A stretch of 64,000 nt of DNA from Flavobacterium sp. SUN052 (GTDB taxonomy: Bacteria > Bacteroidota > Bacteroidia > Flavobacteriales > Flavobacteriaceae): assembly GCF_028867935.1 (NCBI RefSeq), contig NZ_JAPQNS010000001.1, positions 1,178,001 through 1,242,000 of the forward strand. Reading direction: 5' to 3'. Positions 53,873 through 64,000 of the stretch are shown in pieces. Under the pieces are notes generated by a model. It saw only the letters and a list, made by a program, of their open reading frames with translations, had not been told where the DNA came from and did not search any database. Every line of letters starts with the position of its first letter. Positions within the stretch are counted from its first letter, which is position 1. A program made the position numbers and the translations under genes.

Positions 53873-55576
53873 TCAAAAGCTCAACGAATACTGCACTGTA
53901 CCTTGTTGTTCGCGGAAGGTTTGCAGCCCCCGGTTCAAAACGGTGGTGGCGTTCACCGAAAGCCTGTGAACAGGCGTTACCTGATAATCGATGCCCAGAC
54001 CGGTGCTGATAACGATCCCTTGCGTGTTGAACTCTGCCAATGTTTCAACGCTTTTTAAGTAATTGGCATTTACCCGCAAACCGAGTTTGTTTTTCAGGAT
54101 TCGCTTGCCGATTTCAAGCGATGGGCCATAAAATGTACTGCTCAAATCGAGTCCGGTTGTGTGGGTATAGCCGTAGCCCACGTTCACATCGATGCTGGCT
54201 ATCAGGTGCTGGAAGGCGTAGTTGAGGGTGTAGTTCCAATTTTCGTTGCGGTTCAGATCAGCCGTGAACGGGTTCAGATCTTCCAGTTCCTGGTAGGTAC
54301 CCGAGCCAGTTATGGTATGAATGCTTGTTTCGCGGGCCCAAAGTTTGAATAGGCTACCCGATAGCGTCCGGTTGTTCTGTGCAACGCGGGCCGTGTCGTT
54401 AATGGGCCGGTAACCAGCCCGTTGGGTAATACCATAGTTGGAATAAGCCAAATCGAGCATCAGGTCTTTTTTGGATGCGTAGGACACACTCAGTGAGCCA
54501 ATCAGGCGATCTGTGCGGGTCCTTTTCTGGTTCATCAGATTGTCATGCTGCCAGCCGATGCTGCTGCGAAGTTGAAGACGCTTTTTGAATAACTTGAGAG
54601 CGGGAGCCACTGTAAAACTCTCCAGATCCGTCTGGAAATAATAAGCTCCCATCGATTTGTAATCGGGTTCGATTCGCTTGTAGCGAAGTTTAAGATCGGC
54701 CCACCGCCCCCGGTAACTGAGCGATGCCTGCACAGCTGTATAAATTTGGGTCGATTCCCGCGCTGTGAACAGGTTTTTCAGTTGCCCCAGATACCGAAAC
54801 CGTTCATCGCGGCTGGTGGTCGTTGCCACGGTATCGGTCCGGCTGTCGTGGGTGTAGGCGCTACCGGCCGCGTCGATTTCAACAAGCAGATTTTTATTGA
54901 GTTGAAAGCGTCCGCTCAGACCCAGTACCACGTTTTCGGCGGGTGCAATCTGACGCAGGCTGTCAGTCCGAATCGAGTTCACATCGTCAGACACGCGGAG
55001 TAAAATCAGGTCGAGGTAATTGCGGGTATTGCCAAGGCCAATTTTGGCGCTGTAACCCGTCCGGCGAAACGTAGCCACCCGGTCGGGATTGGCGAAGTTT
55101 GCATCGATAGCCCGGTTGAATTTGCCCACCACAGCCCCTACGCGCAGAAAGCCGGGATTTACTTCGATTCCCGCCCCCAGAAACGTGTGCCCTGCCAGCG
55201 TGAGGGGCGAAAACATCACGTTGCGGTAGCCCGCGTGCAACGTGAGCCAGTTGCGGAAACGCGGACTAACGCCCACCTGGTTGTAGGGCTGGCGATACCG
55301 TTGCGTTTCTGAGCTCCAAAGCAACTGAACCGGCACCGTCCAGCCCGAACGTGAGGTCAGGGTCAAATTACCAGTCAGCCCCCAGGGCATCACCTGCATT
55401 TGCGGAGTTTCCAGGCCACGCAACAAATAGAAGCCCGTTGAGAGTGCCACATCGCCCGTTACCTGAACGGCTGGTTCTATTTTAGGCAGTGAATCCGGTT
55501 GTATCGTGGCACCGGAAGCGAGGAAACAATGGATTGATAACCAGCAATAAAAGAAGGGAAATAGAGCAGTTTTCAC
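53873..55576 (-). CDS. Large outer-membrane barrel of unknown function
   Basis: A 567-residue protein with a signal peptide (FPFFYCWLSIHCFLASGATI) and many alternating strands (GLTGNLTLTSRSGWTVPVQL, LTLHAGYRNVMFSPLTLAG), ending VQYSLSF with the C-terminal Phe of barrel proteins. The start is GTG at 55576. It lies downstream of the first copy of the shared promoter module (55604-55652), so it belongs to the local regulon. Family not recognised beyond barrel type. Confidence 0.7.
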   Translation of the reverse strand: MKTALFPFFYCWLSIHCFLASGATIQPDSLPKIEPAVQVTGDVALSTGFYLLRGLETPQMQVMPWGLTGNLTLTSRSGWTVPVQLLWSSETQRYRQPYNQVGVSPRFRNWLTLHAGYRNVMFSPLTLAGHTFLGAGIEVNPGFLRVGAVVGKFNRAIDANFANPDRVATFRRTGYSAKIGLGNTRNYLDLILLRVSDDVNSIRTDSLRQIAPAENVVLGLSGRFQLNKNLLVEIDAAGSAYTHDSRTDTVATTTSRDERFRYLGQLKNLFTARESTQIYTAVQASLSYRGRWADLKLRYKRIEPDYKSMGAYYFQTDLESFTVAPALKLFKKRLQLRSSIGWQHDNLMNQKRTRTDRLIGSLSVSYASKKDLMLDLAYSNYGITQRAGYRPINDTARVAQNNRTLSGSLFKLWARETSIHTITGSGTYQELEDLNPFTADLNRNENWNYTLNYAFQHLIASIDVNVGYGYTHTTGLDLSSTFYGPSLEIGKRILKNKLGLRVNANYLKSVETLAEFNTQGIVISTGLGIDYQVTPVHRLSVNATTVLNRGLQTFREQQGTVQYSLSF

Positions 55577-55603: not shown

Positions 55604-55652
55604 CAAAATTGGCCGTTTCAGGTCCCCTGTTTCAATACAAACAAGTCTGTAT
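55604..55652 (-). promoter_or_regulatory. Shared promoter module, copy 1
   Basis: Palindrome ATACAAACAAGTCTGTAT (55635-55652) and, 23 nt away on the minus strand, the -7 box CAATTTTG (55604-55611). This copy has a TTG (plus-strand CAA at 55633-55635) at the -33 position, overlapping the palindrome edge. It serves the outer-membrane barrel gene starting at 55576. Confidence 0.7.
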
Positions 55653-55663
55653 TTAAGGGATTT

Positions 55664-55711
55664 AGGATCACGGATCAGACGGTGTTTACGGATTTTTCAG
55701 TCCGTGATCCT
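55664..55711. repeat. Inverted repeat straddling a stop codon, GGATCACGGA type
   Basis: AGGATCACGGA (55664-55674) pairs perfectly with TCCGTGATCCT (55701-55711), spacer 26 nt. The left arm lies just past the stop (55675) of the membrane-protein gene, and the right arm encodes residues in its C-terminal TGSRT segment. Confidence 0.8.
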
Positions 55712-56241
55712 GTCAGTAACCGGAAAAGCCCGTAGACGATAAACATCACGGCCAAACCAAACGAAAGCCACTTCCCTAATTTAAAAACCTCACATAGAAC
55801 CGCTACCGTCACCGACTGACTTGGATAGCTGTTCAGTAAGGTGACGATGGTTATGTTCTCCAGGTAATCGAAAATCAGGCTGACAAAGGGCAACAGCGTC
55901 ACGCTCGCAAACGGTTTATAGGGCTTGTTTCGATACAACAGGGTCAGGATAACGGCAAACAACAAACTGTATACGATTGGGTAAACCACGTCGGCAGTCA
56001 GTTCCGTTTGCGCGTAGTAAGCACGGGCTTCGGGGCCGTAGTCGGCTACCATCTGTAGTGTTCGGGTTGGGTTGAAACCAACTGTAAGGTCAATGGGGCC
56101 GACGGTTTTGCCCGCCAGCTGATTTATGTTAGATTCCGCATTCTTGAGCCAATAGGCCGGGAAACTGATGTAAATGGCTAACAGAAGGAGCAACGTTTTC
56201 CAGTTGGCAATGCGGTCCAGGAAATTAGATAATGCAGTCAT
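55675..56241 (-). CDS. Small integral membrane protein of unknown function
   Basis: A 188-residue protein with four or five hydrophobic helices (TLLLLLAIYISFPAYWL, VYPIVYSLLFAVILTLLY, SVTLLPFVSLIFDYLENIT, WLSFGLAVMFIVYGLFRLL). No catalytic motif. The C-terminal residues after TGSRTEK lie in the fold-back repeat. It lies between two members of the regulon but has no promoter module of its own; the gap to the upstream Cys-rich gene is 158 nt and holds another inverted repeat. Family not recognised. Confidence 0.65.
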   Translation of the reverse strand: MTALSNFLDRIANWKTLLLLLAIYISFPAYWLKNAESNINQLAGKTVGPIDLTVGFNPTRTLQMVADYGPEARAYYAQTELTADVVYPIVYSLLFAVILTLLYRNKPYKPFASVTLLPFVSLIFDYLENITIVTLLNSYPSQSVTVAVLCEVFKLGKWLSFGLAVMFIVYGLFRLLTGSRTEKSVNTV

Positions 56242-56285
56242 TATAGTGATTGGTGATTGAGTGAATGGAATATTGCGTCAAATAG

Positions 56286-56357
56286 GTAAATGGGTAAATA
56301 AGGGTTTGTTAGAGAGGGTATTATCATGTTCTCTCAACTCCTTAATTACCCATTTAC
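56286..56357. repeat. Inverted repeat, GTAAATGGGTAA type
   Basis: GTAAATGGGTAA (56286-56297) pairs with TTACCCATTTAC (56346-56357); an inner GAGAG/CTCTC (56312-56316, 56331-56335) extends it. It lies 42 nt from the stop of the Cys-rich protein gene. Same GGTAA word class as the 12526 hairpin. Confidence 0.75.
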
Positions 56358-56399
56358 TGAATCACTTAGTTACTCTGTTTCTACTTAGGACCAGCCTTA

Positions 56400-56813
56400 T
56401 CACTCACCTTTGATATCGTCAACTTTCATATACCAGGCCGCTGTAGATGTGCCGCCACCACTACTCAAGACTGGTTTGGGGATACAAAAGCAGATGTAGG
56501 CCTTATATTTTTCGCTGTAAACGCAGCGAGTTTCACCATCACAAGGTTTGGGGGGCTGCGTATTACCACAAGTAGAACAGGCGTCGTCCTCAAATTTGAT
56601 TACCAAGCCTGTTGGCTTACGGACTTCGATGCCGGTAAGTTCACCCCCACGAGACGTAAACGTGAGTGATGACCCGTCGCGCAGTCGAACGGCATTGCGC
56701 CCTTCGCGGATATTAACGGAGCCAGATTCAGTTATAAGTGGAGCTACAGCGTTAGCGTATGACTGAGCAACAATGGCTACGAACAAAGCGAGTATTGAGA
56801 GGAAATTTTTCAT
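56400..56813 (-). CDS. Cys-rich secreted protein, paralogue B
   Basis: A 137-residue protein with signal peptide (MKNFLSILALFVAIVAQSYA). The mature part INIREGRNAVRLRDGSSLTF, ELTGIEVRKPTGLVIKFEDD and a Cys tail (CSTCGNTQPPKPCD, CVYSEKYKAYICFCIPKP) matches paralogue A residue for residue in layout, including the ICxC motif. Six cysteines suggest disulphides or metal binding. The ATG at 56813 starts the signal peptide; the 47 upstream codons are not credible. Its leader still contains AAAAAAGAGGATTG, similar to the module leaders, so it is probably co-transcribed with A or derived from the same duplication. Confidence 0.65.
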   Translation of the reverse strand: MKNFLSILALFVAIVAQSYANAVAPLITESGSVNIREGRNAVRLRDGSSLTFTSRGGELTGIEVRKPTGLVIKFEDDACSTCGNTQPPKPCDGETRCVYSEKYKAYICFCIPKPVLSSGGGTSTAAWYMKVDDIKGE

Positions 56814-56883
56814 TGGATTTGATTGGTTGTTTTGGCGGTTCGCCGTTGTGATTGAAAAAAGAGGATTGAACAATTCTGGAGAA

Positions 56884-57324
56884 TTAAAACCGGGCTGCCG
56901 CTTCCCGAACTTTCTGAACGGCGGGTAATAAGAGGCCGATGTTGTAGATGTCATCGGGCATAGTCAGATCACACGCTTTACAGATACACATACCAATGTT
57001 TTTGTCTTCGGTAGCGAAGCAGGCATCAGGCAGCGGGCATTTGCAAACCGGGTTCGGTGCATCGTCGTTGGGCGAAAGCCGGTCCACTTTACCCGATGCG
57101 TCAACAAACAGAACGTTAGAGAAGGTGTTGCCGCGTTTCAGGAATCGGAGCGTACCGGCATTTCCATCTGCTGATCTCACGGGAACAGCGTTGAGTCCTT
57201 CGTTCAATTTAATCGAGGTGAGGTGAATGTCCTGAAAGACAACTTTGCCAGACGATGTTTGGGCCGAGACAGCGCCAGCCAGGGCAACAACGAATAGTGC
57301 GATAATTACGAGTACTTTTTTCAT
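56884..57324 (-). CDS. Cys-rich secreted protein, paralogue A
   Basis: A 146-residue protein with signal peptide (MKKVLVIIALFVVALAGAVSA). Mature part: IKLNEGLNAVPVRSADGNAG, TLRFLKRGNTFSNVLFVDAS, then the Cys region KCPLPDACFATEDKNIGMCI with CxC motif. The C-terminus LLLPAVQKVREAAARF resembles the LLPAVQ-x-AREAAR motif of DUF1559 (planctomycete pseudopilin-like) proteins, which is odd for a Bacteroidota protein. Function unknown. Driven by promoter module copy 2; stop and next start are 70 nt apart. Confidence 0.65.
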   Translation of the reverse strand: MKKVLVIIALFVVALAGAVSAQTSSGKVVFQDIHLTSIKLNEGLNAVPVRSADGNAGTLRFLKRGNTFSNVLFVDASGKVDRLSPNDDAPNPVCKCPLPDACFATEDKNIGMCICKACDLTMPDDIYNIGLLLPAVQKVREAAARF

Positions 57325-57404
57325 TGAATGAGATTAGTTAACTGGTTAAAAAAGAGGAAATTGATTGAGGGAAAGAGGTTGGCTACACTGCCGTTCTGAT
57401 GATA

Positions 57405-57453
57405 CAAAGATGGGGGATTGGGGAGGGCTGAATCCATACAAACAAAGTTGTAT
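57405..57453 (-). promoter_or_regulatory. Shared promoter module, copy 2
   Basis: Palindrome ATACAAACAAAGTTGTAT (57436-57453), 23-nt gap, minus-strand -7 box CATCTTTG (57405-57412). Transcript leader about 75 nt to the Cys-rich gene at 57324. The palindrome starts 3 nt past the FMO stop codon. Confidence 0.75.
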
Positions 57454-57456
57454 TTT

Positions 57457-58974
57457 TCAGACTGCAACCAATCCAGAGGCAGGTTTTGCAACAGATTTAA
57501 CCGGATATAATGCCTGTAATTCCTGGGTAAGACCCTTGTAAATAGCCGGGTCAAACGGCTTCATAAACTCAGTAATGGGGTTGTTGGTCCGGCGGGTTTT
57601 CAAGCCCATATCGCGCATCAGTTCGTCGGCATGGTGGAACGAGAACGGGATAATACAGGTGCCGGAAGCATTGCTTTTGGGCGCGCGTTGCACCAGCCAT
57701 TCGTGGTGTAAAGCAATCTCCATTTTCATGGCCTGAGCATCGGGCAGATTTAGTTGCCCCTTAAAATACTGGGCCGAATAATGCGCAGCCAACTCCGACG
57801 TAAACGGGGTAAACAACGATGGATTATACCCAACGAACGTCAGGTTCGGTACATCAGCGGGTACCACGTTGCGGTACAGTTGGAACCAGCCTTTCTGATT
57901 ACGAATCCGGTTGCTTACTGCTTCGCTGAAAAAAGGCACCGACTGCCGGAAACCCGTTGCGAAAACCACCTGATCGGCCACGATTCGTTTGCCCGTATTC
58001 AGCACTACACCATCGGGAACAAAGCGGGCTATTTCGCCTTTCTCCAACTGGATCTCACCAGAAGCTGCCCGCTCATAGAAATTGTCTGACGTTAATCCAA
58101 TGGAGCAGTTGGCGATGCTATCGAAGGGTTTATCGGGGAGCAACCCGCTCTTTTTGAGCTTTAACTGTGCCGTTACCAGCTTGCCCAACCCTTTTACCAG
58201 GAGTCCCGTAACGGGTTTACCCAAGGGGCCATGCAGAAATTTGTGAATGCCAAATAGAAACCGGTACGGAAACAACGACTCGCCAAAACGATGCAGCAGC
58301 AAGTGTTTAAAGTTTAGGCCCCAGAAAATTCGGGGCATTTTCCATTTAGCTTCCCGATAAATACAAACGGGCTTCTCCGACACGTTGCTTACCTGCGACA
58401 GAATGTCATGGGCCGATTTGGCAAAACCAACTACGGCTACTTTCTGGACTTTGGCCGCGTCGAGGTGTTGCTGCCGGTACTCAGTGCTGTGGAGCACGGT
58501 GCCCCTGAATACGTCACGGCTCGGAATCTGGGGCATATTGGGCTCACTGAACACCCCGTTGCAGACAACCAGAAAATCAACCACTGTTTCGCTCGCTTCG
58601 CCATGTTGACGGGTGTGAATTACCCAGCCACCCGCTCCGCCGTCGATGGCTTCGGTATGCTCTACGCTCGTGCTAAATCGGATTGCGTTCAAAATGCCGA
58701 ATTGCCGGGCGTAGTTGGTCAGGTATTCCTGCACCTGCTTGCCCGTTGGCCATTCGGGGTAGTGTTTGGGCATGGGGAAGTCGGTGAACGTGTAGGTATC
58801 GCGGTTGTTTTGGGTTGTCACGTTGGGGTACCGACGGGTGGAGGCCCACACCCCGCCCAACTCGGCTTCGCGTTCGAACAGCACTACGGAGAAGCCGTGT
58901 TCACGCATAGTTTTTGCCGTTACTAGACCGCTGACTCCGGCTCCAATGATGCCTATCGTTTGTGTCGTTTTCAT
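57457..58974 (-). CDS. Flavin-containing monooxygenase
   Basis: A 505-residue FMO-type protein. FAD loop GAGVSG at 11-16, ELGGVWASTRRYPNVTTQN after it, the FMO-type region VLHSTEYRQ, a second dinucleotide loop VAVVGFAKSAHDI and FATGFRQSVP. No signal peptide, so it is cytoplasmic. Substrates of bacterial FMOs are varied (amines, sulphides, siderophore precursors); the sequence does not say which. It has promoter module copy 3 (-7 box 51 nt upstream), linking it with secreted and outer-membrane genes. Confidence 0.85.
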   Translation of the reverse strand: MKTTQTIGIIGAGVSGLVTAKTMREHGFSVVLFEREAELGGVWASTRRYPNVTTQNNRDTYTFTDFPMPKHYPEWPTGKQVQEYLTNYARQFGILNAIRFSTSVEHTEAIDGGAGGWVIHTRQHGEASETVVDFLVVCNGVFSEPNMPQIPSRDVFRGTVLHSTEYRQQHLDAAKVQKVAVVGFAKSAHDILSQVSNVSEKPVCIYREAKWKMPRIFWGLNFKHLLLHRFGESLFPYRFLFGIHKFLHGPLGKPVTGLLVKGLGKLVTAQLKLKKSGLLPDKPFDSIANCSIGLTSDNFYERAASGEIQLEKGEIARFVPDGVVLNTGKRIVADQVVFATGFRQSVPFFSEAVSNRIRNQKGWFQLYRNVVPADVPNLTFVGYNPSLFTPFTSELAAHYSAQYFKGQLNLPDAQAMKMEIALHHEWLVQRAPKSNASGTCIIPFSFHHADELMRDMGLKTRRTNNPITEFMKPFDPAIYKGLTQELQALYPVKSVAKPASGLVAV

Positions 58975-59024
58975 GATTATAGCGAGAAAAAAGAGGAAGG
59001 CGATATTGCCCTGTTTGTATGATA

Positions 59025-59073
59025 CAAAGATGGCCTATCGGGTAGGGTGAAATCTATACAACCTTGTTTGTGT
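59025..59073 (-). promoter_or_regulatory. Shared promoter module, copy 3
   Basis: Imperfect palindrome ATACAACCTTGTTTGTGT (59056-59073), 23-nt gap, -7 box CATCTTTG (59025-59032). Leader of about 45 nt to the FMO start. Confidence 0.7.
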
Positions 59074-59121
59074 TTTTGCTGAATGTCAGTCCTTTGCGCG
59101 ACTTTTTTTTGATACAAATGC

Positions 59122-59153
59122 AAAAAGGCAAGGGCATCAGCCCTTGCCTTTTT
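59122..59153. terminator. Bidirectional intrinsic terminator
   Basis: AAAAAGGCAAGGG (59122-59134) and CCCTTGCCTTTTT (59141-59153) form a perfect 13-bp hairpin with a 6-nt loop, A-run and T-run built into the stem. It lies 26 nt downstream of the secreted-protein stop on the minus strand. Confidence 0.9.
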
Positions 59154-59179
59154 TAGTGATTTTTATGTTGGATTGAGGG

Positions 59180-59629
59180 TCAATTAGCCATCTGCAAATT
59201 TCCTGGTCCCGATGGTAAATAGAATAGGAATTTAACGGTGTCGGGAGTAGTAGCGCCCACCAGGTAGTAGAACACCATGTTGGTACCCGTACCCTTGCAG
59301 GCGTAGGCCTCAACGCCCCCCGTGTTGGGTGTACTCAGGTATAGATGGTTAACGTGAGTAATCTTGTCTAATTTAATTACCTTACTCGGATTACCGTACT
59401 CTCTGAGTTCTGGATTGACAATCGTTTTCTTCTGAAGATCAACCCAGGCCGTAACATAGTACTTGTCGGTACCATTACTGTTAGTGATTCCAGAAGAATA
59501 GGGGCACAAGCTCACCCCTGAAGCACGGGGACTGTACGACATTTCTTCGAATGAATATTGGACTTGTTGTGCGAACGATGTGGCTACGAAACCAAGGAGC
59601 ATTGCGAAAATCAGGCTTACTTTTTTCAT
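59180..59629 (-). CDS. Secreted protein of unknown function in the module cluster
   Basis: A 149-residue protein with signal peptide (MKKVSLIFAMLLGFVATSFAQ). The mature part contains a single CPYSSG motif and a later YACKGTG (two Cys in total) and is strand-rich, ending LPSGPGNLQMAN. No family recognised; not related to the Cys-rich pair. The ATG at 59629 is supported by the signal peptide; the in-frame codons upstream run through the promoter module. Own terminator downstream and module copy 4 upstream. Confidence 0.6.
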   Translation of the reverse strand: MKKVSLIFAMLLGFVATSFAQQVQYSFEEMSYSPRASGVSLCPYSSGITNSNGTDKYYVTAWVDLQKKTIVNPELREYGNPSKVIKLDKITHVNHLYLSTPNTGGVEAYACKGTGTNMVFYYLVGATTPDTVKFLFYLPSGPGNLQMAN

Positions 59630-59709
59630 GATTGTAATTGATTGAACTTGGTTAAAAAGAGGAAATTGATTGAGATAAAGAGGTTGGTTCTTGTCCCGTT
59701 TGGGTGATA

Positions 59710-59758
59710 CAAAGATGGCGGATGGAGGAGGGGTAAATCCATACAAACAAGTTTGTAT
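59710..59758 (-). promoter_or_regulatory. Shared promoter module, copy 4
   Basis: Best palindrome ATACAAACAAGTTTGTAT (59741-59758), mismatched only at the central two bases. 23-nt gap, then minus-strand -7 box CATCTTTG (59710-59717). The -33 position reads TGG, not TTG, consistent with activator dependence. Leader about 75 nt. Confidence 0.8.
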
Positions 59759-59796
59759 TTTGTTGATTATGAGACAATTACTGTACATAATAAATC

Positions 59797-59818
59797 CTCT
59801 CCGAAGTTTCGGAGAGGC
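59797..59818 (-). terminator. Hairpin terminator of the beta-lactamase-like gene
   Basis: CCTCTCCGA/TCGGAGAGG, 9-bp perfect stem with a 4-nt loop, 32 nt past the stop on the minus strand and followed there by an AT-rich tract (ATTTATTATG). Confidence 0.65.
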
Positions 59819-59849
59819 TGGTAAGCAGGGCTTTTGTATGGGTAAACTG

Positions 59850-61118
59850 TTACTTCCAGGACTCGTCGAAAGCAGCCCGAATCCAGTTGATATTAGTCAC
59901 ACCGCTGTCATCGTGATTCGACATAACCGCCACCTGAACCCGCGCCGTTGGACAGTCGAAATCAACCAGCATTGTGGCTAGTCCCCCGGTCAGGCCGTTC
60001 ACGTTGAGGGTAATGCCGCCATATTTGTAGTAGTATTCGCCGTACTTGCCGGTCTGCGAATCATTGAATCCCAATGGGCGGCCTTTGTACCCGGTTCGGA
60101 TGGCCTTCATCAGGGGTTCCGATACAATTTTGTAATCGTTAGCCGCCGACGTAATCTGTGCCAGTTCGATGGAGTTCAGGTCGAAACCAGCTGAGCCCAG
60201 GTTTACTAGGGTAGTCAGTGAGCTGGTGTTTGTACCGGCAGCTCCCCCCTGATTGCTATTGTAATAAAGAGTAGGTGAATTGGTACCGGGGTCGGTAGCA
60301 CCGAGCGCACCCCAGATACTTAAGCCTGCGGGTTTGAACACATCATTGCGAACAAAGGATAAGAATATATTCGCCATTCCCGCGTCTAGGTTTGCTGGGT
60401 TGCTTTCCATCTGCGCTATGGTCTGTGGGGTCATTTTCAACACCTCTTTCCAGTAAACGTAAGGTAGCAGCAAACGGCACAAGGCAAAGTTCATGTTGTT
60501 GTACTGGTATGAATCGAACCCGGCTGAGTTGTTGGTCCGAACAGATTGTTGCATTTCGGCCAGCGTGATGTTGATGTCGCTGACACCCCCAACCAGCCCT
60601 GAGTAATGCGAAAGCAATTGCTGAAAGGTAATCTGCCGTACGGATGCTATGGCGTTCATGTACGCTGGGATGTACGGTCCAATTGGTGTGTCGATATCCA
60701 GACCAGCGCGGTCTAACATCCGCACCATAGCCAGCGTAGTTATGTACTTTGAGCAGCTGGCAATCTCCTGACGAGTCATTGGGTTGTAGCCGCTCTGTGG
60801 AGAATCTATAGCTTTCCGGGCTACACCATCATATCCTTCGGCCGTTACAACCCGCTGGCCATCCACAAAAATGGTGTATGCATAGCCCGACAAGTTACGA
60901 ACTTTTAGAAAAGCGTCGATTTTGGTTTTCATGACCATCGGATCGAACTTGATGATTTTAAAGTCGCCGAGACCATTCGGAGCGGGTGGGGTAGTCCCGA
61001 TTGGCGTGTTGCTGATGGGCATTGGGTCGAGGCCCGCCATTTTTTCGCAACTGGTAGTGGTCAGCAGCAGCGAGGTAATTAAGAATAAGCCTGTGTAAAA
61101 ATTGAGGAAGGTTTTCAT
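59850..61118 (-). CDS. Beta-lactamase-like serine hydrolase lipoprotein
   Basis: A 422-residue lipoprotein (LLTTTSCEKM, lipobox C24). Serine-hydrolase motifs: SxxK at S121-K124 (SCSK) and YxN at Y206-N208 (QYNNMN); the third KTG/HxG motif is not clear (candidate NGLTGG near the end). The fold is of the class C beta-lactamase/DD-peptidase/esterase family; the degenerate third motif argues against a real beta-lactamase. Envelope location, substrate unknown. Promoter module copy 5 lies upstream, and the sensor kinase gene is divergent. Confidence 0.75.
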   Translation of the reverse strand: MKTFLNFYTGLFLITSLLLTTTSCEKMAGLDPMPISNTPIGTTPPAPNGLGDFKIIKFDPMVMKTKIDAFLKVRNLSGYAYTIFVDGQRVVTAEGYDGVARKAIDSPQSGYNPMTRQEIASCSKYITTLAMVRMLDRAGLDIDTPIGPYIPAYMNAIASVRQITFQQLLSHYSGLVGGVSDINITLAEMQQSVRTNNSAGFDSYQYNNMNFALCRLLLPYVYWKEVLKMTPQTIAQMESNPANLDAGMANIFLSFVRNDVFKPAGLSIWGALGATDPGTNSPTLYYNSNQGGAAGTNTSSLTTLVNLGSAGFDLNSIELAQITSAANDYKIVSEPLMKAIRTGYKGRPLGFNDSQTGKYGEYYYKYGGITLNVNGLTGGLATMLVDFDCPTARVQVAVMSNHDDSGVTNINWIRAAFDESWK

Positions 61119-61184
61119 GCGATTGTTTTGGCCGGAACGCCGGAGCGGTTAAAAAGAGAAAGGTTCTGTCCCGTTTGGGTGATA

Positions 61185-61233
61185 CAAAGGTGGCGGATCG
61201 GGTAGGGGCGAATCCATACAACCTTGTTTGTAT
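61185..61233 (-). promoter_or_regulatory. Shared promoter module, copy 5
   Basis: Palindrome ATACAACCTTGTTTGTAT (61216-61233), 23-nt gap, minus-strand -7 box CACCTTTG (61185-61192). It lies between the beta-lactamase-like gene and the divergent sensor kinase (start 61292), 58 nt from the latter, so it might also affect the kinase. Confidence 0.75.
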
Positions 61234-61291
61234 TTTGCCGAAAAACGACGTTCATTTGATCTTTCCTCTCCATTGAACCTTGATCCACAGC

Positions 61292-63253
61292 ATGAAACGC
61301 GCCGGTTACCTCTGGTTTTTGCTAATGCTCACCTTTACAGTGAGTGCGCAACAGGCCCGGCAACGCTCTAAAGTCATCATCGTTCGCCCCGATGCTGCGG
61401 GTGAAATTCCGTTACGAGGCCATTTGTACCATTTTGCCGATTCATCCGGTCAGTTAAGTCTTAAACAGGTATTCGACCGCCAGCAAGCGGGCCAGTTTCA
61501 ACCCACCACCAGCCTGACCAACCGCCAGGATTTCGGCTACAATACCACGGCTGTTCACTGGCTTTATTTTGAACTTGAAGCCCCCAACGATGGCCCCCAG
61601 CAATCACGTTTAATGCTCGAAATCGAGTATGCTAACCTCGACGAACTACAGCTGACGGAAGTGGGAGATGGGCGGATTCTAACAGCAGGCCCAACCGGCG
61701 ACCGGTTTCTGTACAGTCAGCGGCCTTACCAGAACAATAATTACGTGTTCCCAATTCGGTTACGGTCCCGCTCCGGCGTACCAGCCGCCAGGGTGGGTTA
61801 TTTCCTTCGGGTAAAACAGCCTCACGCCGTGCTGTCGTTTTTTATTCGGCTCTGGAACCGTCCCGCTTTTGTGGCTTCTGACCGCACCGAATATTTCCTC
61901 TGGGGTATCTATGTGGGTATAATCTGCATTGTGCTGGTGCTGAACATGGTGATGCTGCTGGCCTTGCGCGACTGGATTTACTTGTGGTACAGCCTGTATC
62001 TGCACTTCATGACGATGCATCTGTTCTCCGACGCGGGTCTGGGATTTCAGTATCTGTGGCCCACCGCTCCGCGTCTGAACGAGTTTTTGCCGGTCTATCT
62101 CTACGTCTGGGCGGGCATGGTAGCCCAAACGACGTTTATGCAGTATTTTATTCATCAGAACCGGCATACCAGCCGGGTATACCGGTGGGTGAATGCCTTT
62201 AAAATCTTCGTGACGGCAGCTTTAGTGGGAGTCATAGGCGTGCAGTGGCTGAAAGTACCTGGCCGTGAAGAGTATATGTACCAGTTGGTGTCGGTGTCTA
62301 CGTCTTTATTTGTACCAGTGATAGCCGTGTTGACGATTATGAGTTTGGTGGAAGCGAGTCGGCGGGAGCGGAAAAAAGTGTCTGGCAAGCGAAACGGCGA
62401 AACAATGGTTCGCTTTTATAGCTATGCGCTAGCGGTACAGTTCACGGGCTACATGGTTGTGGCCATCATGAATTTTTGCCAGGCGCAGGGCTGGCCGCTC
62501 CCCTTCGATGTGGAAACCTACGTGGTGCTGGGGATAACGGTGATAGCTGATCTGGTATTTTTCACGTATGGGCTTACCTACCGCTATTCTCGGGCAAAAC
62601 AACACAATCAACAGCTGGAGCTTGACTTGCTAAACAGTCGGCAGGTGGCTCAACAACAGGTAATTGCGTCATTACAGGACGAAAGCCAACGGTTGGCTCA
62701 GGACCTGCACGACGACATTGGGCCACTACTGGCCACGGCCAAAGGGTATTTGTCGCGGTTGGCTCGCACCGACCAGGTTACTCCTTTGCAACAGGCGCAA
62801 ATACTCATCGACGAGGCTGCCGACGAACTCCGTACGCTATCGCATCAGCTGCTACCCAAACAACTGGACCAAACTAGCCTGGTCAATGCAATTGCCGAAG
62901 CCGCCCGGAAAGCAGGCATTCGGGGGGTGCCGGTCCAGTTTGTTAGCTTGGGAGTTGTAAGGCCATTGGGCTCCCAGCGAGAACAGTTGCTGTTCAGCCT
63001 AGCGATTCAACTGATCAGAAACGCCCAGAAACATCCTGACGCGACCGAAGTAATTGTTCAGTTGCTGTATCATGAAGAGCAACTGAACCTGTCGGTAGAA
63101 GATGATGGACAGCCCACCAACTGGGGCGAAACAGACGGGGCTAATCTTCGCGCTAAAGCAGACCTGCTCAAAGCTGATTTACTAATTGATGCCACGGAAT
63201 CGGGCAATTCGGTGATGGTAAGCTTGATGATACCCGACACCATACCGGCATGA
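61292..63253 (+). CDS. 7TMR-DISM sensor histidine kinase
   Basis: A 653-residue kinase. Signal (YLWFLLMLTFTVSAQ), then a 7TMR-DISM extracellular domain (residues about 35-185, RQDFGYNTTAVHWLYFELEA), seven membrane helices (about 200-410) and a cytoplasmic kinase part. The phosphoacceptor is H473 in RLAQDLHDDIGPLLATAKG, typical of HisKA_3 kinases that pair with NarL/LuxR-type regulators. The ATP-binding domain has IRNAQKHPDATE (N-box) and VEDDGQPT. The ATG at 61292 is preferred over TTG 61280. Its stop overlaps the start of the next sensor gene (ATGA). Confidence 0.88.
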   Translation: MKRAGYLWFLLMLTFTVSAQQARQRSKVIIVRPDAAGEIPLRGHLYHFADSSGQLSLKQVFDRQQAGQFQPTTSLTNRQDFGYNTTAVHWLYFELEAPNDGPQQSRLMLEIEYANLDELQLTEVGDGRILTAGPTGDRFLYSQRPYQNNNYVFPIRLRSRSGVPAARVGYFLRVKQPHAVLSFFIRLWNRPAFVASDRTEYFLWGIYVGIICIVLVLNMVMLLALRDWIYLWYSLYLHFMTMHLFSDAGLGFQYLWPTAPRLNEFLPVYLYVWAGMVAQTTFMQYFIHQNRHTSRVYRWVNAFKIFVTAALVGVIGVQWLKVPGREEYMYQLVSVSTSLFVPVIAVLTIMSLVEASRRERKKVSGKRNGETMVRFYSYALAVQFTGYMVVAIMNFCQAQGWPLPFDVETYVVLGITVIADLVFFTYGLTYRYSRAKQHNQQLELDLLNSRQVAQQQVIASLQDESQRLAQDLHDDIGPLLATAKGYLSRLARTDQVTPLQQAQILIDEAADELRTLSHQLLPKQLDQTSLVNAIAEAARKAGIRGVPVQFVSLGVVRPLGSQREQLLFSLAIQLIRNAQKHPDATEVIVQLLYHEEQLNLSVEDDGQPTNWGETDGANLRAKADLLKADLLIDATESGNSVMVSLMIPDTIPA

Positions 63254-64000
63254 CACGAAACTTGATTAGTTTATTTGGGATCGTGATAGCGCTCATGCTT
63301 GGACTGGCAACCTATCACCTAAACTCTGTAAACGCACTGCCCGAGCTACCGATTCCGTTTTCTCATTGGGAAGATACGGGCGGGGCGGCTACCGTTCAGG
63401 ACGCGGTTCGGACCGGTACATTTAAAAAAGCTCCCAAAGGCCGAATCAATTTTGGCTACACCGAATCGGTGCATTGGTTTCGGTTTCAGCTACCCGCCGA
63501 CAGCCTGCCTAAAGATCTCGCTTTTGAAATCCGTAACCATACCATCGATTATATTGAACTGTTCGAGGTGAAATCCGGTCAAATAACTTCCCTGGGTAAA
63601 ACAGGAAGTCGGTTGCCATTTGCCCAGCGCCCATCGCCGACCAAAACATTTGCGTATCTGCTGAGTGTTGAAGCCGGTCAACCAGTTGACTATTACCTCC
63701 GAATTGACAAGCGTTATGAGAATTTAGCCACCGAACTGACCCTTTGGCGTACCGATGATTTTGAAGATAAAGAACAGCGTGAATATTTTCTTTGGGGCTT
63801 TTTTACAGGCGTAGTGGGGTTGATTGTCCTCTTAGCAATCTTGTTTTTTATAGCCACCAGCGACCTCGTTTATGGCTTCTACGGGTTATTTATTCTGGCA
63901 CTGGCGCTCCGACAATTTGCCGATACGGGTCTTGGGTTTCAGTACCTGTGGCCGGGGCTACCGGCGATCAATCAGCCAGACCCCGTTATCCAGGCATTGT
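63250..64000 (+). CDS. Second 7TMR-DISM sensor protein (3' truncated)
   Basis: The ATG at 63250 overlaps the preceding TGA by 4 nt and the frame stays open to the window end (250 codons). It starts MTRNLISLFGIVIALMLGLA (signal or first helix), followed by a DISM-type domain (GRINFGYTESVHWFRFQLPA, FEIRNHTIDYIELFEV) and the first membrane helices (GFFTGVVGLIVLLAILFFIA, GLFILALALRQF). It repeats the layout of the previous kinase, including TGLGFQYLWPGLP, close to AGLGFQYLWPTAP there, so it is a tandem paralogue. Its output domain is beyond the window. Confidence 0.85.
   Translation, partial: MTRNLISLFGIVIALMLGLATYHLNSVNALPELPIPFSHWEDTGGAATVQDAVRTGTFKKAPKGRINFGYTESVHWFRFQLPADSLPKDLAFEIRNHTIDYIELFEVKSGQITSLGKTGSRLPFAQRPSPTKTFAYLLSVEAGQPVDYYLRIDKRYENLATELTLWRTDDFEDKEQREYFLWGFFTGVVGLIVLLAILFFIATSDLVYGFYGLFILALALRQFADTGLGFQYLWPGLPAINQPDPVIQAL

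Follow-up and report, generated by a model that had tools for sequence, protein, structure and literature searches.

Response regulators of the NarL/FixJ family typically recognise a dyad site with TAC..GTA. Split histidine kinases are known among the CheA proteins, as exemplified by CheA3/CheA4 of Rhodobacter sphaeroides (PMC3591291), and a conserved tyrosine at the phosphorylation site has been described for the Caulobacter pseudo-histidine kinase DivL and called unique to it (PMC4211667). The locus presented here is found in Flavobacterium sp. SUN052 (Bacteroidota), in a window of 64,000 nucleotides (nt) that is the whole stretch of DNA analysed (contig NZ_JAPQNS010000001.1, positions 1,178,001 to 1,242,000); prefixed coordinates, such as L008:6446, do not use the window numbering. 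It combines a set of promoter modules, each consisting of an 18-bp palindrome and a -7 box at a fixed distance, with a cassette of three 7TMR-DISM histidine kinases (HK1, HK2 and HK3) and one response regulator (RR).

At the level of sequence, the promoter regulon is well supported. Together with class-II-like activation by the RR and a split three-protein kinase it forms a single explanation of the locus, which we consider probable on the strength of the sequences; its more surprising element is the three-part kinase. Such an explanation would offer a complete and testable circuit of three sensors, regulator, operator and targets, and to our knowledge few response-regulator operators have been defined in this phylum. 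Searches of the open-access literature listed no account of such a system.

Promoter modules in the genome and its relatives

An 18-bp palindrome and, exactly 23 nt after it, a CANNTTTG -7 box precede each of five minus-strand genes of the window. This layout had been proposed in the initial annotation, and all five copies proved to be exact in it, with the caveat that only one of the five palindromes is perfect. At up to 3 mismatches, ATACAAACNNGTTTGTAT has 6 matches in the 64-kb window against 0.35 expected, and none of 100 shuffles reached 6. Five of the six (with 0, 1, 1, 2 and 2 mismatches) lie within 55604..61233, and the sixth (28964, 3 mismatches) lies outside this region. The five minus-strand palindromes have their first bases at 61233, 59758, 59073, 57453 and 55652, and the box found on the same strand exactly 23 nt after each of them has the form CA(C/T/A)(C/T)TTTG. 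Palindrome 1 (61216..61233, 1 mismatch), with the box CACCTTTG at 61185..61192, precedes the gene of a beta-lactamase-fold protein and also faces HK1. Palindromes 2 (59741..59758, perfect), 3 (59056..59073, 2 mismatches) and 4 (57436..57453, 2 mismatches) are followed by the same box, CATCTTTG, at 59710..59717, 59025..59032 and 57405..57412, respectively. Palindrome 5 (55635..55652, 1 mismatch), the edge of which makes a TTG 21 nt from the -7 box, is followed by CAATTTTG at 55604..55611; all these elements are on the minus strand.

In the whole 8.1-Mb genome the module at up to 2 mismatches occurs seven times, the backwards control giving none. The two occurrences in addition to the five are found at C1:1253931 (box GACCTTTG), preceding a predicted secreted protein at L008:15177, 12 kb beyond the window end, and at C13:101938, preceding a 230-amino-acid protein without a family match. 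Furthermore, a perfect palindrome at L008:6446 is positioned 22 nt before TACTTTTG, ahead of the genes for HK3 and the RR. The five modules that had been taken for a local regulon are thus real, but the regulon is larger than the five window genes, extending to these two modules and to the HK3-RR palindrome.

The palindromes are kept together with their -7 boxes in 11 other genomes; their loss from close relatives that retain the -7 boxes would have spoken against the proposed regulon. The HK3-RR palindrome is present in all 12 genomes, and the stretches taken from the relatives keep the order of targets reading in one direction and HK1-HK2-HK3-RR in the other. In Rudanella and in Emticicia sp. 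CRIBPO the cassette is broken up over several contigs. Additional modules of S. profusum lie on two other contigs. The HK3 promoters of both Emticicia genomes (L039:8007 and L042:3935) have TANNTTGC in place of TANNTTTG, at 22 nt, and this box resembles the SM5 box (TAnnTTGY) of PMC9723704. Two tandem modules before one gene were also observed in both Emticicia genomes, at L169:1460 and 1570 (110 bp apart) and at L171:48 and 137 (89 bp apart).

Spacing and conservation of the modules

The distance between palindrome and box was scanned on both strands over 10-35 nt, without being preset, using the boxes TA/CANNTTTG, GANCTTTG or TANNTTGC and the exact palindromes of the fetched stretches. After merging copies with the same close context, 41 of the 43 exact palindromes were counted, from 12 genomes, and every one of them has a -7-like box at 22 nt (12) or 23 nt (29), while all other distances together gave 4 matches. 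The exact 23-nt spacing of the initial annotation consequently holds for all five copies of the window but not for those 12 of 41 palindromes elsewhere; the 22-nt distance is found mostly at HK3 promoters. When up to 3 mismatches were allowed and distances of 22 or 23 nt accepted, the set grew to 54 modules, of which 44 have 23 nt. A look-alike on G060:C589 was excluded from this set and from the conservation profile, which also loses one module at a contig edge.

Over the 43 aligned modules of the profile, conservation sets in sharply at -56, with AAA before the palindrome, and is gradually lost beyond about +15. Per column, the upstream flank shows 0.08 bits and the palindrome 1.62. The promoter-distal arm of the palindrome is nearly invariant and the proximal arm is looser, the nGA at -35 to -33 is still highly conserved, and an A is present at -18 in 42 of the 43 modules. 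The conserved stretch amounts to 26 bp at a fixed distance from the Bacteroidota -7 box. Since the numbering follows the box at -12 to -5 of Flavobacterium psychrophilum (PMC9723704), the palindrome centre falls at -44.5 for 23 nt, inside the range of -42 to -45 given previously, and at -43.5 for 22 nt. A TTG located 17-22 nt from the box is present in 14 and absent in 40 of the 54 modules; the initial annotation had described the -33 TTG as weak or absent in at least one copy. Nine modules with a TGA-type spacer, including the promoter at 55652, have the TTG at 21 nt. The first transcribed bases (about TATCACCCAAACGGG, e.g. window 59690-59709) are conserved in many modules to about +15, and these early bases downstream of the -7 boxes could represent a second element or an early-transcript feature.

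The response regulator and its co-occurrence with the modules

The gene for the RR is found at L008:8436-9065, 4.4 kb beyond the window, and combines Response_reg (PF00072) with GerE (PF00196, E 1.1e-13), which supports the earlier suggestion of a NarL/LuxR-type partner. The Asp, Thr and Lys of the receiver are kept in 12/12 RRs, as is the recognition helix LFLS[VI]ATVKTHRNNINLKL, and the nearest PDB structures are those of VraR (5hev), DesR, DevR and NarL. A contig scan yielded ten orthologs at 72-94% identity, followed by a gap to 42% and below. Modules occur at nine of the ten ortholog loci, the tenth being a 3-kb contig of a genome that has modules on other contigs, and in none of the 69 loci of more distant RRs.

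Co-occurrence was counted in 222 genomes of the family of S. profusum, with an ortholog cut-off of E up to 1e-70 and modules at up to 1 mismatch. Eleven genomes have an RR ortholog. The module is present in 17, namely in 11/11 RR-positive and 6/211 RR-negative genomes, the backwards control being found in 2/222 (Fisher p 1e-14, a value that overstates independence given the kinship of the genomes and the joint inheritance of the cassette). Of the 222 genomes, 16 contain the exact palindrome ATACNAACNNGTTNGTAT (control 2/222), comprising all 11 RR-positive ones, with 1-7 copies each, and 5/211 RR-negative ones, with one copy each; its centre consists of A/T only in the RR-positive genomes and contains G or C in the RR-negative ones. 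The eleventh RR genome (G255) surfaced by its module before the RR was searched for in that set. As the cassette is inherited as a block, the co-occurrence ties the sites to the cassette, and of the 18 genes of this genome that were followed into the relatives, only the RR gene both recurs and encodes a DNA-binding product. Judging from these data, the regulator of the promoter regulon is very probably the adjacent RR.

Complementary losses in three kinases

The initial annotation had pointed to one divergent 7TMR-DISM kinase with a HisKA_3-type His box. HK1 (61280..63253, plus strand) indeed is such a protein, with 7TMR-DISMED2, 7TMR-DISM_7TM and HisKA_3, its His kept; however, it has no HATPase_c match and is one of three kinases with complementary defects. 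HK2 (63250..64000, plus strand, continuing to L008:5109) has kept HATPase_c and lost the His, without a HisKA_3 match. HK3 (L008:6458-8362, outside the window) has 7TMR-DISMED2/7TM and HisKA_3, with no PAS domain, no HATPase_c match and no ATP lid. A gene for a NamZ-type exo-N-acetylmuramidase lies between HK2 and HK3 (L008:5115-6392) and was not found in the stretches of the relatives.

In an alignment of the kinases of this genome and ten others, HK1 has DLHD[DE][ILV]G in 11/11 sequences, the ATP lid missing in nine and kept by both Emticicia. HK2 lacks the His in 10/11, the exception being S. luteum with a His in an altered box, and keeps the N, G1 and G2 boxes. HK3 has DLYDDVG in 11/11 and no ATP lid. 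Wider counts were obtained from three database searches, of which the best 8000 candidates were scored, with N, D[ND]GxG[FI] and xGxG as the criterion for the ATP boxes; P0109 and P0110 (HK3; 28% and 25% identical), P0109 (HK2) and P0162 (HK1) were left out. The His of HK1 is present in 108/108 rows that cover it (109 rows), with canonical ATP boxes in 20/105. HK2 has a His in 2/88 rows (P0165 does not cover the site) and ATP boxes in 82/86, and HK3 has the Tyr in 106/106 covered rows (109 rows) and ATP boxes in 0/104. For 26 contigs, taken as identical because their lengths agree across the three kinase lists, 24 triples follow the pattern in full; in the other two, one HK1 has canonical boxes and one HK2 box is off the strict pattern by one letter.

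For control, this genome contains 22 matches to 7TMR-DISM_7TM, 19 of them besides HK1-3. Six of these 19 match HisKA_3 (one below the cut-off), and all six, among them the one that neighbours the nearest paralogous RR, combine a His box with HATPase_c. In the cassette, by comparison, a single phosphoacceptor and a single ATP site have survived, each on a protein of its own, and HK3 has neither, being strongly conserved around its Tyr. Set against the intact control kinases, these complementary losses suggest a split three-protein membrane kinase.

Genes downstream of the modules

The gene behind palindrome 1 (59850..61118; this and all following genes are on the minus strand) encodes a secreted serine beta-lactamase-fold protein of 422 amino acids (PF00144, E 7.9e-18), in which the SxxK and YxN motifs were located by eye. 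It is followed by genes for a small secreted protein of 149 amino acids (59180..59629), predicted to be all-beta (predicted structure, mean pLDDT 72), and for a flavin-containing monooxygenase (FMO) of 505 amino acids (57457..58974; PF00743, E 2.4e-50). Two small secreted proteins come next, a Cys-rich one of 146 amino acids (56884..57324) and its Cys-containing relative of 137 amino acids (56400..56813), the gene of which, at a guess, shares the transcript of the former. The C-terminal end of the Cys-rich protein reads GLLLPAVQKVREAA[A/S]R (window 56884-57324; L169:2727-3155) and is conserved in Emticicia aquatilis; we take it to resemble the LLPAVQ..REAAR of planctomycete DUF1559 proteins, a match that Pfam did not return. 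A 188-amino-acid protein (55675..56241) stays near the FMO in most stretches of the relatives, and the last gene (53873..55576) encodes a putative barrel of 567 amino acids, with no PDB match and no Pfam match over the cut-off. The families recurring as first gene after the modules are the FMO, the 567-amino-acid protein, the small secreted proteins, a 240-amino-acid secreted family and the beta-lactamase-fold protein. Four first open reading frames after modules have no relative in the set, and the stretch taken from Emticicia aquatilis yielded no FMO.

Discussion

From the sites, their spacing and conservation, the co-occurrence and the motif losses we infer binding, activation, a heteromer, trans-phosphorylation and a signal, arranged in the following circuit. 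The modules would be the operators and promoters of one regulon under the RR at L008:8436-9065. A phosphorylated RR dimer would bind AAAATACAAAC-WW-GTTnGTATnGA, with its centre at about -44.5, and the bound RR would substitute for the mostly missing -33 element and recruit sigma-A RNA polymerase to the weak CANNTTTG -7 box in a class-II-like manner. It would also activate its own HK3-RR transcript via the palindrome at 22 nt (23 nt in S. profusum). Upstream of the RR, a three-protein 7TMR-DISM receptor would draw its ATP-binding catalytic domain from HK2 and its phosphoacceptor His from HK1, with HK3, in which a Tyr takes the place of the His, as pseudokinase partner; HK1, once phosphorylated in trans by HK2, would hand the phosphate to the RR. 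A more far-reaching proposal, on which we are evenly divided, is that the three tandem receptors form one obligate hetero-kinase, so that phosphorylation of the RR would require agreement between up to three extracellular inputs; the RR would then drive both a surface regulon of fixed geometry and its own HK3-RR transcript.

Several observations weigh against this circuit. The 20/105 HK1 rows with canonical ATP boxes include that of Emticicia aquatilis (P0292), and the HK1 of this species could work alone. In two HK2 rows (S. luteum type) the column does contain a His, but the acidic residue that comes after it elsewhere is missing, and the two distant HK3 matches outside the count (P0109 and P0110) have K and H at the Tyr site. 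Nor is the loss of HATPase_c unique to the cassette, since two other 7TMR-DISM arrays of this genome, of HisKA type, each have a member without it: L201 in the array at C37:409035-411775 (L205, L201) and L199, without both kinase halves, in that at C20:19797-24574 (L203, L202, L199). The two arrays possibly share the habit of dividing kinase parts. Among the module hits, the six in RR-negative genomes are single, with spacers unlike the others. The shared letters of the spacers could reflect common descent of copied promoters, and the choice of activation over repression rests on geometry.

As regards the kinases, HK1 homodimers might bind ATP via a diverged pocket and act alone, HK2 and HK3 being signal-sensing modulators. 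The His kept in 108/108 covered HK1 rows, the canonical boxes in 20/105 and the complete appearance of both Emticicia HK1 would suit such an arrangement, but canonical boxes are missing in the other 85 of 105 rows, and HATPase_c is matched by the HK2 of this genome and not by its HK1. Moreover, HK2 has retained its ATP boxes (82/86) despite the lost His, which is hard to explain unless the ATP site of HK2 is used, and an undivided HK1 is therefore unlikely. Concerning the promoters, repression by the RR, at least at HK1, is distinctly less to be expected than activation, and we regard it as doubtful. It draws on the HK1 side of palindrome 1, where a T[TA]NNTTTG box stands at 16-17 nt in 11/11 loci (a permissive pattern counted without a chance control) and an arm of the palindrome gives a -33-like TTG 19-20 nt from it; in the window the candidate is TTCATTTG (61251..61258, plus strand), 17 nt from palindrome 1 on the opposite strand. 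The arm would overlap the HK1 -33 box, and hence the RR may lower the expression of HK1. At the target genes, however, most of the promoters downstream of the palindrome have no -33 TTG, a pattern that suits activation.

The constant 22-23 nt might also be due to the copying of one promoter cassette, without functional constraint, as GGATTyrCCCCT is common to many spacers and TATCACCCAAACGGG to many 5' ends. This is very improbable, given that the distance is kept by unlike spacer classes (GGATT..CCCC, TGAAA..GGGG and the HK3 promoters), that the upstream flank is flat (0.08 bits) and that the promoters precede unrelated genes and are kept across several genera. Just as improbable is an unlinked transcription factor that binds the palindromes, the RR being a mere neighbour. 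The RR has been linked to the sites from sequence alone, and an AraC-type gene is also located nearby (L008:16178-17182); yet the latter has no match in the stretches of the relatives (E 1e-8, not all stretches extending that far), whereas the RR tracks the sites, has a palindrome at its own transcript in 12/12 genomes and is the sole recurrent DNA-binding product mentioned above, genes found only in relatives being unannotated.

The RR shares its architecture of receiver and GerE domain with the NarL/FixJ (LuxR-type) regulators VraR (5hev), DesR, DevR and NarL, and the kinases of the cassette likewise are of HisKA_3 type. Unlike those systems, the cassette has the 26-bp conserved stretch at a fixed distance from a Bacteroidota -7 box, and three kinases beside one RR. 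As in CheA3/CheA4 (PMC3591291), ATP-binding and phosphoacceptor functions appear to reside on separate proteins, here as read from sequence. However, CheA3/CheA4 are CheA proteins of a cytoplasmic cluster that miss whole domains, whereas the membrane 7TMR-DISM proteins of the cassette have lost residues and loops and are joined by a third, pseudokinase, member. Hik36/Hik43-Rre6 of Synechocystis similarly pairs a split kinase with one regulator but is of CheA type, with kinase genes far apart (PMC7656254). The domain layout of the cassette, 7TMR-DISM with HisKA_3 or HATPase_c, is not that of CheA. HK3 resembles DivL in the Tyr that replaces the phosphoacceptor His and differs from it in that DivL has PAS domains and a CA domain (PMC4211667), HK3 being a 7TMR-DISM protein without ATP lid, from another phylum and encoded with the RR. 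If the kinase is indeed divided among three membrane receptors, it would represent a split kinase of receptor type outside the CheA proteins and supply a second, unrelated example of Tyr at the phosphorylation site; it would also illustrate how pseudokinases turn into fixed sensor parts. The system would then work like a split kinase, yet it is no CheA, and by domain layout HK3 is no DivL.

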